Shown: positions 25,224 through 52,954 of the stretch, piece after piece | How positions within the stretch are numbered: the stretch's first letter is position 1 | Layout of the letters: the number at the start of each line of letters is the position of its first letter | DNA from: Halarchaeum acidiphilum MH1-52-1 | Lineage (GTDB): Archaea > Halobacteriota > Halobacteria > Halobacteriales > Halobacteriaceae | Reading direction: 5' to 3' | DNA: 52,954 nucleotides | Assembly: GCF_000474235.1 (NCBI RefSeq) | Contig: NZ_BATA01000006.1 | Coordinates: 1-52,954 of the forward strand | Notes under the pieces: model-generated | The model's input: only the letters and a program-made list of their open reading frames with translations | Database searches by the model: none | What the model was told of the DNA's origin: nothing | Translations under genes and position numbers: made by a program

Positions 25224-27884
25224 TCAGTCGCTCGTGGTACCCATGCGGAGGTCGACGTCACCGGTGCCGAGGCGGACCGGCTTCCCCACGATGACGTTCT
25301 CGATGATGCCATCGAGGTCGTCGGCCTCACCGTAGATGGCGGCGTCGAGGAGGTGGTTCACCGTCACCTCGAACGCGGCCCGCGCGAGCACGGAGTCCTT
25401 GTTCCCGGAGATACCGTGCCGACCGATGGACTGGATGGTCCCGTCGTTCGTCATGATGTCCGCGACGAGCATCAGGTGGCGGATGTTCACGTCGTCGAGA
25501 CCCTGCTCTTCGAGCGTCGTCATCGTCTCGTCGATGATGGCCTCGCGGGCCGCCTCGATGCCGAGGGTCTTGTGGACCTCGTGGATGTTGTTACACGTCG
25601 TCCGCGAGGCGTCAACGCCCTCGATCTTGAGCGTCTTCTTGAACGCCGACCCCTCGGTGTAGAGGACGAACTCCTCGCCCTGCTCGGTCTCCTCCTTGCG
25701 GATGACGACGCGGCTGATGTCCTCGATGCCCTTGAACGTGATCTCGCGCAGCTGCTCGACGAGCTGCAAGAGCTCGCGGTAGCTGGGCTCCTCGGGACCG
25801 AACTCGAGGACGGTGCCGTTCTGCCTGACCGTCACGCCGAGGTTGTCCTGAATGATGTCGGCGATCTCGCCGGCGATCTCCGTCGTGCTCTCGACGGTCG
25901 GCCACCGCTCGGCGAGGGTGTCCTCGTTGAGATCGATGGAGACGATCATGTCGGCGACGTTCGTCGAGATGTCGCCGAGCGCGAGGATCTTCGTCGCCTC
26001 GATGTTCCAGACGACCTCGTGGGCGCGCTCGCGATCCGTCGCGTACTCGTCCTCGAGGTGGACGGTCATCATCGGCGTGTCCGGGTTCTTCCGGGCGTCC
26101 ACGAGCTCGATGAGCCGCGGGAGGCCCTGCGTGACGTCGATCTCCGCGACGCCCGCGTAGTGGAAGGTGTTCATCGTGTTGTGCGTCACGACGCCCTGCG
26201 CGGTCGTGAACGTCTCCAATCCGGCGACCGAGAAGTCGTAGACGTACTCGTGGTCGGGCTCGACGGCCTCGATGGATTCGATGCGCTCCCAGACGACGTC
26301 GCCCTCGACCGCGCGTTCGAGCGCGTCGAGCTCCGGCGGCCGCTCATCGGCCGTCGACGCGATCTTGTCGACGAGTCGGGCGAGTCGAGTTCGACCGATC
26401 CGCTGACGCTTCGTCGCGCTGTTCACCTGACGGGCAGGGATTCCGGCCGCGGACGCGGCGTCGGCGAGCGCGTCGCCGAAGTTCGGAATCTGATCGGTCG
26501 CGTCCGGCCCGTCGGCCTCGACGGAGTCCGCGAGTTCGGCGAGTGCGTCACCGCGTTCGCCGGGGACGTCGAGTGCCGCATCGGCGGCCGGGACGCACTT
26601 CTTCGGGACGCGAAGCGTCCGGGAGCCGTCCTGTTCTCCCAGCGTTCCGTAGACGCCGAGGCGCGCGAACAGGAGTGCGACGCCCTCGGTGAGGCGTTCA
26701 CTCGTCGAGCTCGTTCGAATCGCGTTCCGGCCGACGTTCCCGTCGCCACCCACGTAGCCCGCGAGAATCCCGCGGACGAACGCGTCAGGCGCACCGAACG
26801 CGAACCCGGGAACGACCTTCTGGCCGTCCTCGACGCACGTCTCGCGGAGGAAGTCCGCGAGCACGGTGCCGTTGACGCGGATATCGTAGCCGGTAGCGAA
26901 CCCACTCGTGTTCTCGTACTCGTTCACCGAGAGGTCGAAGCGCTCTGCGAACGCGCGAACGCGTTCTTGGAACGCGGTGTCCACGTTCGAGACCGAGACG
27001 TAGCCATCGGCGTGTGACCCCTCTGCGAGCCACGCGCCGACGAAGAAGCCGGTCCCTTCATCGAGCGGGAACTGCTCTGGGAGCCCGACCGTACCACCGA
27101 CCGGGTACGCCGTCTCCTCGGCGAGATCACCGCGGTCGAGAGCCGCACGCTTGTTCGCGACCTGCTCGTCGCTCGCGGGGAACGACGCCGCACCGCCGTC
27201 GGTGAGCGCGGACGTGAACCAGTAGTCCTCGCTGGAAAGGTGTTCGCGGAGGTCGACGTACTCCGGCGCGTCCGTGGCGCCCAAGTCTTTGACGACCGGG
27301 AGCCAGTCACCGGTATCGAGGTCATCGCCCGAGACCGGCACGACGTCGTTGTCACGTCGTGTGACGAACGAGTGTGCGCGCGTCGCGCGGATCGTCCGCC
27401 CGGATTCGAGCGTGAACGCGAGGAGGTCGTCCGGCGTGTCGTGGCGGCTGACTTCCTCGACTGATTTCCACTCGACACCCTCGTCGGCGCGAAGGCTCGG
27501 CACCTCGAGGTCGTCTGGTGCGAGCGCGACCTCGTGGTCGTCGAGCGTGCGGGACTCCCGAGTCGCGAGCACGTCGTCGACGAGTTCGCCGATCTCGACG
27601 ACGTCCGTCTCGCCGCGCCGGCGAACGAGCACGCGCTCGTCGTGCGGGACGCTCATCTGCGTTCCCGGCTCACCGATGGACTGCGCGCTCACGGTGCCGA
27701 CGGGGTCGAGCGGATCGACCCGCGAACTCGTGTACTGGGCCTCGACGGCCTTCGCGATGTAGTTGGCGTTCTGCGTATCGACGCCGTCGCGGGCCTCGAT
27801 GGTGTCGTACACGTCCTCCTTGAGCCGGCGCGGGAGGTCCGTGTCCTCCACGACGGCTTCGATGTCGTCTGTGATCTCGGTCAT
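25224..27884 (-). CDS. rpoA2: RNA polymerase subunit A'' with an intein
   Basis: An 886-codon gene for the C-terminal part of the largest polymerase subunit. The extein is 394 residues (residues 1-77 and 570-886), normal for haloarchaea, and an intein of 492 residues interrupts it after SIGEPGTQM; the extein resumes with [12 protein letters not shown]. This is the conserved segment near the trigger loop of the active site, so splicing is required for a working enzyme. The ATG follows the rpoA1 stop without a gap (27884/27885) and nusA follows after two bases. Confidence 0.97.
26178..27653 (-). mobile_element. Intein with LAGLIDADG-type homing endonuclease in rpoA2
   Basis: The 492-residue intein begins with Ser ([20 protein letters not shown]) and ends GVVTHN; the next extein residue is Thr. 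Splicing block B is TRAHSFVTR and block F is [14 protein letters not shown], with His-Asn at the end, so all canonical splicing residues are present. Endonuclease blocks are [13 protein letters not shown] and [13 protein letters not shown], the two LAGLIDADG helices, which appear intact. Related A'' inteins are known from other archaea at this kind of site. Splicing and homing activity are inferred. Confidence 0.95.
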
Positions 27885-34935: not shown

Positions 34936-35841
34936 TCAGTCGGCGCGTCCGGCGACGTCGTACTCCGTCCCGGTCGCGAGGTAGAGGAGGTCTCGGACCA
35001 CGGTCCCTAGCTCGGGCAGCACGCGGAGCAGGACGATCGTGAGCGCGACGAGCGCGACGACGGAGAGCGACTGTGCGATGACGCGGTCGGCGATGTAGTA
35101 GGAGGTGACGCCGCTCTGCGTGGGGCTGAAGACGATCGCGACGATCCGATGGGCGAGCGGCCCGTCGAACCACTGGTTCCCGTGCGCCATCGCGATGAAG
35201 GAGACGCGGACGACGTTCAGGGCGTAGATGACGGGGACGGCGATGCCGAGACCGAGGAGGCGCCGGCGCAGCGGCGCGCGCAGCGCGATGATGACGCCGG
35301 CGACGAGCGAGATGCTGCCGATCCCGGTGCAGGCGAGGAGGACTTCGAGGAGGTAGCGATGCCCGTCGACGACGTAGACGAACGCGTGGGGGAAGCCGGT
35401 GTGCGAGGACTCCATCGTCGGGCCGGTGAGGACCCGCGGGTGATAGCCGAGGGCGTTCTGGAGCCACGCACTCTCGCGCGCCGTCGCGGCGATCAGCGCC
35501 CGCCCGACGCCGTCGATCGTGAGCACCGGGAGGTAGATGATCCCCATCGCGGCGACGGCGCGCGAGAGGATCATGAGCGATGGCCGCGTGCCGTAGACGA
35601 GGTACGCGACGTAGAGCGATCCCGGGACGGCGGCCGCGACGAGTATCGTCTCGATGACGCTCTTCTGCGCGAACCAGAAGTGCGGGACGAGGAGCGCCCA
35701 GAAGACGCCGAACAGGACCCACGAGACGGCGGCGACGGAGCGCGCGGCGCGCGCGTAGTCGTCACGCGTCGCGAGGACGGCGCTCGCGGCGAACAGCCCG
35801 ACGACGATCCACGCGAGCGCATCGGTCGTTTCGAGCGCCAT
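34936..35841 (-). CDS. artA: Archaeosortase A
   Basis: A 301-residue polytopic membrane protease/transpeptidase that cleaves PGF-CTERM tails and is linked to lipid attachment of surface proteins such as the S-layer glycoprotein. The exosortase-type active site is visible: Cys171 in LLACTGIGSIS, Arg212 in NVVRVSFIAMAHGNQW, and a conserved HR at 231-232. Cys-to-Arg spacing is 41 residues, as I recall for Haloferax ArtA. About seven to eight hydrophobic segments span the protein. A catatac-like box at about 35864-35872 supports the ATG. Its likely substrate, the S-layer protein, is encoded at 40847-43912. Confidence 0.93.
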   Translation of the reverse strand: MALETTDALAWIVVGLFAASAVLATRDDYARAARSVAAVSWVLFGVFWALLVPHFWFAQKSVIETILVAAAVPGSLYVAYLVYGTRPSLMILSRAVAAMGIIYLPVLTIDGVGRALIAATARESAWLQNALGYHPRVLTGPTMESSHTGFPHAFVYVVDGHRYLLEVLLACTGIGSISLVAGVIIALRAPLRRRLLGLGIAVPVIYALNVVRVSFIAMAHGNQWFDGPLAHRIVAIVFSPTQSGVTSYYIADRVIAQSLSVVALVALTIVLLRVLPELGTVVRDLLYLATGTEYDVAGRAD

Positions 35842-45877: not shown

Positions 45878-46518
45878 ATGACACTCGACCTCTCGACACC
45901 CGATCTCCCGACACCCGACCTCCCGACCCTCGGCCTCTCGACACCCGATCTCCCAACTTCCAGCCTCCCGGCTCCCAACATCCCAACTCCCCACCTCCCA
46001 ACTTCCAGCCTCTCGACCCTCAACGTCCAGACTCCCAACATCCCGACTTCTAGCCTCCCGACTCCCAACGTCCAGACTCCCCACCTCCCGTCCGGCGACG
46101 ACCGCGGCGTCGCGGCCTGCCGATCCGCCTCGTCGTCGCGTTCGTCGTCGGCACCGCCGTCCTCGGCGTCATGCTCAACATGGTCAGCGGCGTCGGCGCG
46201 CTCACGACGACCGAACTCGACGCCCATCCGACGCCCGACGTCGTCCATCCCGGGAACGGGACCATCGCCGTCGCGGCGGTCGACGCCGCCGGCCACGCCG
46301 TCCCCGACGTCACCGTCGTCCTGAGCGCGGACACCGCCGGTCTCGCGGGCGGGAAGCCGGTCGTCGGGCGGACGAACGAGACGGGCGTCGCGACGCTCCG
46401 CGCGACGCCGACGCTGTCGGCGACGGCCGATCAGGGGACGCTGACGATCACGGTCAAGCCGCCGAGCGGGCAGTACGCCGACCGGCGCGCGAACGCGGAC
46501 GTCCTCGTCGTCCGCTAG
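45878..46518 (+). CDS. Pilin-like DUF7382-type protein with pentapeptide-repeat leader, apparent frameshift
   Basis: The ATG at 45878, preceded by ggagg, opens a frame of fourteen five-residue repeats (LPTPD-like, residues 4-73) ending in SGDDRGV. The next frame continues RGLPIRLVVAFVVGTAVLGV, a hydrophobic helix like the N-terminus of haloarchaeal pilin-like/DUF7382 proteins, then a secreted Ig-like domain (VDAAGHAVPDVTVVLSADTA, VKPPSGQYADRRANADVLVV) to 46518. One added base near 46112 joins them into 213 residues. The family assignment of the second part is fair; whether the repeat leader is translated is uncertain. Its stop overlaps the convergent pcm2 stop by four bases. Confidence 0.6.
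45887..46096. repeat. 15-base degenerate tandem repeat, about 14 units
   Basis: Units such as ctcccgacacccgac and ctcccaactcccaac vary but keep the 15-base period, so no frameshift arises within the array. The plus strand encodes leucine-proline-threonine pentapeptides. The C-rich plus strand is unlike the flanking DNA. Confidence 0.9.
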
Positions 46519-48625: not shown

Positions 48626-48765
48626 ACGTCCCGTATGCGGCCCGAGCCGTAAAAACCCGCGGAGCGGGCCGAGAGCGGTGGGACCGTCCGACACGGTCGA
48701 TGTCGCGAATCGACCACCGGTATCGGCGATAAGGCATTTTAGACTGGCTGACAATATAATTGAAG

Positions 48766-51700
48766 ATGAGTCGAGTCACACTGGCGACATCGCGGACGAT
48801 CGCGATGGTGGTGTTGCTCGTCGGCTCGCTCGCGAGTGGTGGCGTCGGTGGCGTCGTGGCCGCGAGCGGGAGCGGCGACGCGACGGGCGCAGTACAGTTC
48901 GGCTACGTGAGTTCGAGTACCGAGAGCGTCACGCTCGTCACCGAGAGCGGGGCGACGATCGACACGGGCGTCTCGGCCGAGGTCGTCGGAAAGGGCGGTG
49001 ACGTGGACGGCGACGGGTACGTCGAGGTGCCGTACGTCACCGACCAGCAGACGCTCGGCGTCGTCGATCGGACCGGTGAACGCGAACAGTTGGCAGATAA
49101 CGCAAAGAAGACGAAGACGAAGATGGCCGTCGGCGACCTGAACGGCGACGGGACGCCCGCGGTCTACTACGTTCGGCGCACCTCGTCGGGGAACGAGAGA
49201 CTCAGCCGCGCGTACGACAACGGCACGACGGAGCCGGTCGTCTCGACGGACACGGCGGCGAACGCCGCGCTCGGCGTCGCCGACATCACCGGCGACGGCG
49301 TCCCGGAGATCGTCTTCGTCGGGTCGTCGGACGGACTCAAGTACTACAACGAGACGGGCGACGGGGTCGTGAAGTTCTACACGAGCGGCATCGGCTCGAA
49401 CAGCGGCCTCGGGGTCGGCGCGCCCCGCGACTTCGACGGCGACGGCGTCGCGCGCGTCCCGTTCGTCGACGGGAGCAACAACGCGTTGCTCGCCGCACCG
49501 AAGGGCACCGACGCGAACGTGACGACGGTCGTCGAGGGCGGCGTCGCCAAACACACGGTCGCGGGCGTCGACTGGACGGACGATTCGGGCGTCGAGTTCC
49601 TCTACGAAGCGAAGGGGTCGGCGAACACCGTGAAGTGGGCGTCGCTGAACGGCACCACCGGCACCGTCACGGACGCGAGCAGGAACGACATCGTGACGAC
49701 GAACGACGGGGGCGTGGCGTGGATGCCGGACGCCCCCCTGACCGTCTCGAACGCCACGCTGACGAACGAGTCGGGGACGCTCGCGTTCTCCGTCAAGGCG
49801 AACGAGAAACTCCAGTCGATCGACGCGGCCGTCACGGGTCCGAACGGGAGCGAGCACTCGGTCGCCCTCGACGGCTTCGACGCGACGGCGAGCGACGGGA
49901 CGTGGTGGACGTACAACGCGACGTACGCGCCGGACGAGGACGGCAACTACACGGCCACCGTCTCCGGCGCGACGTCGGAAGGCGGTATCGACTGGCGGGG
50001 CAATCAGAGCGACGACGCGACCGTCGTCACCCGGTTCAACGTCACCGATCTGAACGCCACGGCGGCACCCGACCAGCGACTCGGCATCACATTCAACGCC
50101 ACGAAAGAACTGGACAGCGTGACCATCGACGCCTCGGGACCGTCGAACGCCACGCTCGGTCTCTCGAATTTCTCCACGAACGAGAGCGCCCCGCCCTACA
50201 CCTATACCGGCCAGTACGACGCGAACGCCGGCGGCAACTACACCGTCACGCTGACGCGGGCGACGTCGGAGGACGGGCAGGTCGACGACGACGAACTCAC
50301 CGCGAACGCCACCCTCCCCATCTTCGAAGTCGACAACGCCACCCTCAACGCGAGCGGGAATCGGGCTCTCAGAGCCTCGTTCAACGCGACGCAGTCCGTC
50401 GCGGACGCCTCGATCTCACTCGACGGCCCGACGAACACTACGCTCGACTTCGCGGATTTCACGCAGACCGCCAGCGAACCCTACCGCTATGCCGAGACGG
50501 TGAACACCACCGCCGACGGCGACTACGCGTTCACCGTCTCCGACGCGACGTCGGAAGGCGGTATCGACTGGCGGGGCAATCGGAGCGACGACGCGACCGT
50601 GGATGTGAGATTCGACGTCACCGACCTGAACGCCACGGCGGCACCGAATCAGCGCCTCGAGATTTCGTTCAACGCCACGAAAGAACTGGACAGCGTGACC
50701 ATCGACGCCTCGGGACCGTCGAACGCCACGCTCGGTCTCTCGAATTTCGCCACGAACGAGAGCGCCCCGCCCTACACCTACACGGGAGACTACGATCCGG
50801 ACACGGGCGGCAACTACACCGTCACGCTGACGCGGGCGACGTCGGAGGACGGGCAGGTCGACGACGACGAACTCACCGCGAACGCCACCCTCCCCACCTT
50901 CGAAGTCGACAACGCCACCCTCAACGCGAGCGCGGACGGCGATCTCCGCGCGGCGTTCGACGCATCACGTCCCGTCGCGGACGCCTCGCTCTCACTCGAC
51001 GGCCCGACGAACACTACGCTCGACTTCGCGGATTTCACACAGGTCGCCAGCGAGCCGTACCGCTACGCCGAGACGGTGAACACCACCGCCGACGGCGACT
51101 ACGCGTTCACCGTCTCCGACGCGACGTCGGAGGGCGGCATCGACTGGCGGGGCAATCGGAGCGACGACGCGACCGTGGTCGTGAGATTCAACGTCACCGA
51201 TCTGAACGCCACGGCGGCACCCGATCAGCGACTCGACATCGCGTTCAACTCGACGGGGAAACTGAGCGGGGCGACCATCGACGTCTCGGGACCGTCGAAC
51301 GCCACGCTCGGTCTCTCGAATTTCGCCACGAGCGATAGCGCCCCGCCCTACACCTATACCGGCCAGTACGACGCGAACGCCGGCGGCAACTACACCGTCA
51401 CGCTGACGCGGGCGACGTCGGAGGACGGGCAGGTCGACGACGGCAATCTCGTCGCGAACGCTACCCTCCCCACCTTCGAAGTCGACAACGCCACCCTCAA
51501 CGCGAGCGCGGACGGTGATCTCCGCGCGGCGTTCGACGCGACGCAGTCCGTCGCGGACGCCTCGCTCTCACTCGACGGCCCGACGAACACTACCCTCGAC
51601 TTCGCGGATTTCACGCAGGCCGGTAGCGAGCCGTACCGCTACGCCGAGGCGGTGAACGCGAGCGCGGACGGGAACTACACGTTCGCCGTCTCTCGTGCCA

Positions 51701-52836
51701 CGTCCGAGAGCGGCATCGAGTGGCGCGGGAACGCCTCGGCGACGGCAGCGGTCGACGATCGCCGACCGCGGATCCGCAACGCGACGCTGGCCGACGCGAC
51801 GGACGCGAACGGCGCCGTCAACGCCACGGACCGCGTGACGGTGGGGGCGACCGTCTCCGGTGACGTCGCGGGGGTGCGGGCCGACCTCTCGGCGTTCGAC
51901 GCGGGGACGGTCGCACTCACCGCGGTCGACGACGGCACCTACCGGACGACGACCGACGTCGGGAACGCGTCGGCGATGGCGAACGGGCCGGCGAGCGTCA
52001 CGGTGACGGCCCGCGACGGGCAGGGGAGCACGGACAGCGCGCGGACGACCGCCCTCACGCGCGACACGACGCCGCCGACGGTGACGCTCAACGCGTCCCG
52101 AAACGTATCGGTGAACGCCACCGCGACGTTCGAACCCGAGACGGCGAACGACGGGGTGACGCGGATCGTCGCGTACGCGTGGACGTTCGGTGACGGAGCG
52201 CACGCGACCGGCGAGTCGGTTTCGCACGGCTACGACGCGGTGGGGAACGAGACGGCCACGCTCGCGGCGACGGACGCGGCGGGAAACGTCGGGACGGCCG
52301 CGCTGAACGTCTCGGTCACCGCGGCCGCGACGAACGCCACGAACGCCACGAACGCCACCGAGGGGAGCGGGAACGACGCAAACACCGACGACGATGACGG
52401 CGGCGGGGGCTACGTCTCCGACGACGATGACGGCGGCGGGGGCTACGTCTCCGACGACGATGACGACGGCGGGGGCTACGTTCCCAGCACGGAGACGACG
52501 AGCGAGTCGACGGCGACGGACGCGAATTCGACGCCGACGGCGAACGCGACGACCACCACTACGGCGTCAGAGTCGATGACGACGGCTACGGAATCGGCAG
52601 CGAGCGACCCGACGGGATCAGAGAGCGAAGCGCCGTCTGACGGCGATACCGGGACACCGAACCCCGCGACGGCCGAGGGGACGACGAACGGGACACCGGT
52701 GAGCGAGACGCCCGGGACGCCGAGCGAGACGACCCCGGCGGCGCGCACGGCCGGGCCGGGACTGATCCCGCTCTGGGTGCTCCTCGTACTGTGTCTGATC
52801 GTCGCGCTGTTGATCGCGCGGCGGCGGTGGAGCTAG
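48766..52836 (+). CDS. Giant repeat-built surface protein (FG-GAP, Ig-like repeats, PKD)
   Basis: A 1356-residue cell-surface protein. After a signal peptide (MSRVTLATSRTIAMVVLLVG) come about five FG-GAP/VCBS-like repeats (GDVDGDGYVEVPYV, GDLNGDGTPAVYYV, ADITGDGVPEIVFV; residues 75-290) likely forming a calcium-binding propeller. Then follow one diverged and six related Ig-like domains, the six arranged as three AB pairs of 192 residues (residues 426-1001), a PKD-like domain (YAWTFGDGAHATGESVSHGY, about 1120-1190), an acidic Asp/Gly-Tyr repeat (1208-1240), a Ser/Thr stalk and a C-terminal helix (PLWVLLVLCLIVALLI) with ARRRWS. Many sequons are present. There is no PGF-CTERM motif. Adhesion or matrix function is likely but unproven. 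A cattttag box at 48735-48742 fits leaderless transcription. Confidence 0.88.
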   Translation: MSRVTLATSRTIAMVVLLVGSLASGGVGGVVAASGSGDATGAVQFGYVSSSTESVTLVTESGATIDTGVSAEVVGKGGDVDGDGYVEVPYVTDQQTLGVVDRTGEREQLADNAKKTKTKMAVGDLNGDGTPAVYYVRRTSSGNERLSRAYDNGTTEPVVSTDTAANAALGVADITGDGVPEIVFVGSSDGLKYYNETGDGVVKFYTSGIGSNSGLGVGAPRDFDGDGVARVPFVDGSNNALLAAPKGTDANVTTVVEGGVAKHTVAGVDWTDDSGVEFLYEAKGSANTVKWASLNGTTGTVTDASRNDIVTTNDGGVAWMPDAPLTVSNATLTNESGTLAFSVKANEKLQSIDAAVTGPNGSEHSVALDGFDATASDGTWWTYNATYAPDEDGNYTATVSGATSEGGIDWRGNQSDDATVVTRFNVTDLNATAAPDQRLGITFNATKELDSVTIDASGPSNATLGLSNFSTNESAPPYTYTGQYDANAGGNYTVTLTRATSEDGQVDDDELTANATLPIFEVDNATLNASGNRALRASFNATQSVADASISLDGPTNTTLDFADFTQTASEPYRYAETVNTTADGDYAFTVSDATSEGGIDWRGNRSDDATVDVRFDVTDLNATAAPNQRLEISFNATKELDSVTIDASGPSNATLGLSNFATNESAPPYTYTGDYDPDTGGNYTVTLTRATSEDGQVDDDELTANATLPTFEVDNATLNASADGDLRAAFDASRPVADASLSLDGPTNTTLDFADFTQVASEPYRYAETVNTTADGDYAFTVSDATSEGGIDWRGNRSDDATVVVRFNVTDLNATAAPDQRLDIAFNSTGKLSGATIDVSGPSNATLGLSNFATSDSAPPYTYTGQYDANAGGNYTVTLTRATSEDGQVDDGNLVANATLPTFEVDNATLNASADGDLRAAFDATQSVADASLSLDGPTNTTLDFADFTQAGSEPYRYAEAVNASADGNYTFAVSRATSESGIEWRGNASATAAVDDRRPRIRNATLADATDANGAVNATDRVTVGATVSGDVAGVRADLSAFDAGTVALTAVDDGTYRTTTDVGNASAMANGPASVTVTARDGQGSTDSARTTALTRDTTPPTVTLNASRNVSVNATATFEPETANDGVTRIVAYAWTFGDGAHATGESVSHGYDAVGNETATLAATDAAGNVGTAALNVSVTAAATNATNATNATEGSGNDANTDDDDGGGGYVSDDDDGGGGYVSDDDDDGGGYVPSTETTSESTATDANSTPTANATTTTTASESMTTATESAASDPTGSESEAPSDGDTGTPNPATAEGTTNGTPVSETPGTPSETTPAARTAGPGLIPLWVLLVLCLIVALLIARRRWS
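50041..51768 (+). repeat. Three tandem 576-base repeats in the surface protein gene
   Basis: Units start at 50041, 50617 and 51193, exactly 576 bases apart, and stay in frame. Each encodes two Ig-like domains: A (FNVTDLNATAAPDQRL...) and B (EVDNATLNASGNRALR...). Long segments are identical between copies at the DNA level, including silent positions, indicating recent duplication or gene conversion. Confidence 0.93.
52387..52485 (+). repeat. 33-base tandem repeat, three units
   Basis: Each unit encodes DDDDGGGGYVS, with the last ending in YVP. The first two units are identical or nearly so at the DNA level. It lies between the PKD-like domain and the Ser/Thr stalk of the surface protein and could bind calcium or act as a flexible linker. 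Confidence 0.9.
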
Positions 52837-52899: not shown

Positions 52900-52954
52900 G
52901 CTACTCGCTTTCCGGGAGCCTCACGGCTTCCCCATGCTCACGGGTCGTTCCTCC

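Follow-up and report, generated by a model that had tools for sequence, protein, structure and literature searches.

The closest described systems to the protein considered here are the bacterial Periscope Proteins, represented by SasG, Rib and Sgo_0707 (PMC8201768, PMC9704523), a class defined by strain-level variation in domain number; the word archaea occurs in neither of these two papers. In this study we describe a gene for a predicted archaeal surface protein, built from a propeller, repeated immunoglobulin (Ig)-like domains and a PKD domain. It lies at positions 48766-52836 of a 52,954-nucleotide stretch of Halarchaeum acidiphilum MH1-52-1 (contig NZ_BATA01000006.1), the whole of which is referred to as the window. 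No published description of this family was found in the open-licence literature.

Like the Periscope Proteins, the window protein combines, as read from its sequence, surface anchoring with an N-terminal functional domain (here the propeller), a C-terminal tether and a stalk of tandem, similar folded domains of more than 50 amino acids (here a 192-amino-acid unit present three times). The number of domains also differs between relatives, probably through recombination between the repeats. Unlike them, it is archaeal, has a different anchor and carries N-glycosylation sequons in its stalk, and its repeats, 85-91% identical at the DNA level, are on the low side of what is termed "highly identical". 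The class is defined on variation among strains, and what is seen here is variation between sister species (three units versus one); because of this we would say that the protein may work like a Periscope Protein, and do not call it a member of the class.

Domain order of the encoded protein

The gene is a real and complete open reading frame (ORF) on the forward strand, as are all of its features given below, and runs from an ATG to a stop at 52834-52836, encoding 1356 amino acids; its orthologue in a sister species (G003) is syntenic. The draft assembly (89.5% complete) consists of 165 contigs; the window is one of them and ends 118 nucleotides past the gene. A TATA-box-like sequence, TTTTAGA (48737-48743), was recognized by reading 29 nucleotides ahead of the ATG, which is where it would be expected for a leaderless haloarchaeal transcript. 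A scan for bacterial-type promoters gave nothing informative.

Residues 1-33 (MSRVTLATSRTIAMVVLLVGSLASGGVGGVVAA; 48766-48864) were identified by inspection, without a predictor, as a putative Sec-type signal peptide. This is followed by a β-propeller (amino acids 33-320; 48862-49725), in which three stretches match Pfam FG-GAP_3 (PF13517; 35.7 bits against a curated cut-off of 26.9, E 1.3e-8) and four or five DxDGDG-type loops are spaced about 47 residues apart. An AlphaFold model based on an alignment of three sequences has a predicted template-modelling score (pTM) of 0.64 and a mean predicted local distance difference test (pLDDT) of 64. Foldseek searches with this model recovered β-propellers at E ~1e-4, including KICSTOR ITFG2, and more weakly PLL lectins; these matches support the propeller fold and not any ligand. 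The loop motif and the fold are shared with the FG-GAP propellers of integrin α, ITFG2 and cartilage acidic protein 1, from which the window protein differs in its low sequence identity, its lack of integrin leg domains and its roughly six blades, as estimated from length.

The stalk comprises seven repeat-type domains of about 96 amino acids each, which belong to two alternating types: A0 (49735-50031), B1 (50032-50319), A1 (50320-50607), B2 (50608-50895), A2 (50896-51183), B3 (51184-51471) and A3 (51472-51753). A0 is the probable ancestral first stalk domain, and A3 retains the A-to-C junction of the single A domain in the sister-species orthologue. Next is a diverged Ig-like domain, C (51754-52056), found as one copy in the family members read, and then a PKD domain (52057-52320) matching Pfam PKD_4 (PF18911; 51.2 bits against a curated cut-off of 27, E 1.4e-13, amino acids 1102-1183) as well as collagenase PKD structures. 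The C-terminal part consists of an Asp-Gly-Tyr linker encoded by 2.9 copies of a 33-nucleotide tandem repeat (52385-52481), a Ser/Thr-rich stretch that may be an O-glycosylated stem (52483-52749), and a hydrophobic transmembrane helix (GPGLIPLWVLLVLCLIVALLIARRRWS; 52756-52833). Against the PDB, a profile of the Ig-like domains recovered nothing at E below 0.4. A fold search from the model of a single Ig-like domain gave no confident PDB match and, at a pLDDT of 57, is meaningless.

An earlier, sequence-only reading of this stretch had proposed the same ORF, with FG-GAP-like repeats at its N-terminus, a PKD-like domain, the Asp-Gly-Tyr linker and a membrane anchor of a type other than PGF, and these assignments hold. 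Its six paired Ig-like domains are replaced by the seven repeat-type domains and the diverged one.

As in the proteins with a PGF-CTERM anchor that are processed by archaeosortase A, the window protein (P0001) is predicted to be secreted and ends in a helix and a basic terminus, and archaeosortase A (ArtA) is itself encoded in the window (34936-35841, reverse strand; TIGR04125, 292 bits, match at 34954-35817). It differs from them in having no match to the PGF-CTERM model (TIGR04126) even at E 5; the orthologue P0004, P0002 and P0005 likewise gave no match to this model. The model works in this family, a relative from another genus (P0007) serving as positive control with 36.3 bits against a cut-off of 24.5. 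Since P0007 has a PGF-CTERM and the window protein does not, the type of anchor has drifted among family members.

N-X-S/T sequons number 61 in the whole protein, where 18.6 are expected from shuffled sequences (a 3.3-fold excess). They are concentrated in the Ig array (43 versus 11.0 expected) and the PKD region (8 versus 2.6); the propeller has 4, which is not significantly above the expected 2.5. With sequons so distributed, the stalk would be decorated with glycans and the propeller head above it nearly bare.

Copy number and history of the Ig-like repeats

Compared between species, the number of domains in the array varies, and so does the presence of the gene: across the genus there are seven, three or one repeat-type Ig domains, or no gene. 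A constant copy number, which would have spoken against an expanding array as the sequence-only reading pictured it, is thus not what is seen at the species level. The orthologue in the sister species (P0004; 1019 amino acids) has A0 and one B-A pair, that is, three Ig domains and one unit. It occupies the matching locus, with the same pcm, zinc-finger and secreted-protein neighbours. On the other flank, synteny is fixed by the last 54 bases of the window (52901-52954, reverse strand), which encode the C-terminus of an aminopeptidase-like protein (GGTTREHGEAVRLPESE*); this gene is cut by the contig end and is also found downstream in the sister species. In two other relatives (G002 and G001) the zinc-finger gene directly adjoins the aminopeptidase-like gene, which represents the empty site. 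In G002 and G003 the spacer adjoining the aminopeptidase-like gene contains a partial duplicate of its 3′-end (L056:8943-9074 and L058:1910-2126), at the empty site too; the short end of the window contig shows no such duplication. Origin from a phage or mobile element was also considered and rejected, there being no match in phage records or viral contigs.

Homologues with one Ig-like domain occur elsewhere in the genus, in G001 and on plasmid pCBA1220-01 of Halarchaeum sp. CBA1220, the latter annotated as a "PKD domain-containing protein" (WP_123077708.1). Both share with the window protein the signal peptide, the same propeller, an Ig-like domain, domain C, the PKD domain, a low-complexity tail and the transmembrane segment; they differ in having one Ig-like domain instead of seven and in lying at another locus. 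Homologues in other genera of the Halobacteriaceae contain zero, one or four Ig domains in a conserved domain order.

A tree built from 19 Ig-like domains joins A1-A3 of the window in a clade (support 89) that excludes the single A domain of the sister species, and B1-B3 in a clade (90) that excludes its B domain. Another genus has A-like and B-like domains as well (G010; 91-97), and A0 groups with the first domains of G003 and G010 (99). According to these groupings the A0, B and A types are all old, and the tripling of the B-A pair took place in the window lineage, or else the pairs evolved in concert there.

The repeated part of the gene is confined to about 49935-51662, over which similarity persists at an offset of exactly 576 nucleotides; the array thus makes up only part of the protein and begins within the last third of A0. 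Pairwise DNA identity among the three 576-nucleotide units is 90.8, 84.9 and 84.7%, and protein identity is 79-89%. The units differ mutually at 53-88 of the 576 positions and share no exact repeat longer than 106 nucleotides. Pairwise synonymous divergence (dS) is 0.215, 0.296 and 0.292 over whole units and 0.11-0.53 for single domains, with nonsynonymous divergence (dN) of 0.06-0.13 between units. For comparison, dS between the window and the sister species is 0.26 for the zinc-finger gene, 0.40 for pcm and 0.31 for the propeller.

Three near-identical repeats with silent-site identity had been proposed from the sequence, and their exact 576-base period taken to imply recent expansion or ongoing gene conversion. 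The exact spacing stands; the near-identity does not, and by the dS values there is no silent-site identity. The latter was consequently rejected as proof of recent expansion, the per-domain dS being similar to that of the neighbouring genes between sister species (0.26-0.40). Because the dS between units is comparable to that of these neighbours, the tripling would not be recent on the sister-species scale, or the units would have been homogenized slowly.

Recombination between the units, the other half of that proposal, is retained on the evidence of the mosaic in which their differences are arranged. These differences occur as blocks that switch partner, and the longest agreeing runs exceed those of shuffled data (p <1e-4 to 0.0066, all sites). 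The clustering persists on silent codons alone, with adjacent agreements in 20 of 30 cases (p 1e-4), and also without the last 96 nucleotides. Such a mosaic points to unequal crossing-over together with patchy conversion. A further recombination boundary lies in A0, the last third of which (from about 49935) is homogenized with the units, being 92% identical to A1 and 63% to its own orthologue in the sister species. At this boundary an exact 15-nucleotide stretch (GGACGGGAACTACAC) is common to A0 and A in G003, and this is plausibly the crossover site.

The propeller on other proteins and the proposed role

The same propeller family is found at the C-terminus of an ArlG protein (the stator of the archaellum) in the organism's own genome (L024:5922-7196, equivalent to G000:C165:57921-59192), encoded next to an archaellin gene. 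This protein matches the NCBIfam ArlG equivalog with 129 bits (cut-off 110), and genes for an ordinary ArlF and an ordinary ArlG are located within a few kilobases. The sister species likewise has both a fused (L050:9734-11005) and an ordinary ArlG, and a similar fusion was recognized by inspection in G010 (L081). We found no mention of ArlG-propeller fusions in PMC8667602. Proteins of the DUF7261 or type IV pilin-like kind also end in this propeller in several Halobacteriaceae (L002:1396-3393, reverse strand; L006, L048, L049, L078 and L080). In all three contexts, that is the surface protein, ArlG and the pilin-like proteins, the propeller would point away from the cell. A role in recognition is therefore favored, and the distribution suggests that the propeller is a surface-recognition module shared across the family.

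Among 16 genomes of the family and 25 of the order, full-length matches are confined to the Halobacteriaceae (8 of the 16, one of them weak), and other families gave weak generic matches only. A contig scan with the full-length protein gave no match. With the propeller alignment, such a scan recovered mostly generic FG-GAP proteins, plus one propeller outside the Halobacteriaceae, in Haloquadratum walsbyi. A plasmid of Salinigranum marinum (L005:3576-8504) encodes a similar Ig-like array on a different, PQQ-type propeller, together with an N-terminal PKD domain.

We consider the window protein to be, with moderate confidence, a haloarchaeal surface glycoprotein that is anchored in the membrane and acts as an adhesin, with a head carried on a stalk. 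The adhesin-like surface architecture put forward in the sequence-only reading is supported by the domain content, the anchoring, the sequon excess and the conserved domain order. The protein would be exported via Sec and kept at the membrane by the helix at its C-terminus. The Ser/Thr-rich stem, the PKD domain and the Ig-like domains would form a rod-like, heavily N-glycosylated stalk, carrying the calcium-type FG-GAP propeller outwards as a binding head, and the number of B-A pairs would set the length of this stalk. The ancestral form was probably propeller-A0-C-PKD. One B and one A domain may have been gained before the genera diverged, and in the window lineage the pair would then have been tripled through unequal crossing-over and partly homogenized by conversion.

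Several points weigh against this interpretation. It is made from sequence, and the propeller, whose model is of only moderate confidence and built from three sequences, could be structural instead of a ligand-binding head. Matches below cut-off in three proteins, to Filamin (E 0.0058 in P0001, 3.3e-4 in P0007 and 3.9e-4 in P0003) and to Big_7 (E 0.001), suggest an Ig fold for the repeats, and the AlphaFold model of a single Ig-like domain is poor (pLDDT 57). The copy-number comparison is one between species, with the window protein taken from a single contig of the incomplete draft assembly, and further identical units could have dropped out of that assembly. Stalk length need not matter everywhere, as several members of the family have retained a single Ig domain.

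Of the other explanations, the one that survives best is a structural or S-layer-associated glycoprotein, in which the array is a spacer in or across the S-layer and the propeller packs on the S-layer of its own cell or on its archaellum or pilus parts, instead of attaching to surfaces or to other cells. The high density of sequons fits this explanation, S-layer glycoproteins being typically dense in sequons, and so does the fusion of the same propeller to ArlG, through which the module may bind a component of the cell's own envelope. ArlG forms a filament capped by ArlF, which serves to anchor the archaellum in the S-layer (PMC8667602). We regard this explanation as rather unlikely, because no S-layer family model in Pfam or NCBIfam matches the protein and the gene is absent from a close relative, and hence does not encode an essential lattice protein. 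A cell-surface enzyme or polymer binder, with the propeller and PKD domain holding a polysaccharide or protein on which the cell feeds, appears quite improbable. Secreted hydrolases, collagenases among them, often contain PKD domains, and the sugar-binding PLL lectin propellers are among the Foldseek matches, but no catalytic domain was detected with Pfam or NCBIfam in any member scanned. That collapse or a chimera in the assembly produced the copy-number difference is very improbable despite the fragmented draft and the nearby contig end, since the units are distinguishable at 53-88 of 576 positions with exact repeats of at most 106 nucleotides, the one-unit orthologue sits inside a 381-kb contig, and both flanks are syntenic.

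The adhesin interpretation can be carried further, to a periscope-type adhesin, the first from archaea, whose stalk length is still changing among strains, and to one propeller recognition domain serving adhesion, pili and motility (through the pilin-like proteins and ArlG); this extension we hold to be unlikely as it stands.

Other features of the window and significance

Two further features of the window were observed. The gene for RNA polymerase subunit A″ (Rpb1 domain 5; 25224-27884, reverse strand) is interrupted at roughly amino acids 96-569 by an intein that includes a LAGLIDADG domain. A GC-rich tandem array with 15/45-nucleotide periodicity (GACACCCGACCTCCC) is located at 45880-46090, beside the gene for a DUF7382 protein; no function was seen for it.

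Variable-length repeat adhesins have so far been defined on bacterial data and mostly interpreted through host immunity. A case from an archaeon of brines, in which the locus holds a one-unit orthologue in the sister species and is empty in other relatives, would be an example of this evolutionary device at work without a host. The alleles of the window and of the sister species are a tractable pair for asking what stalk length does.

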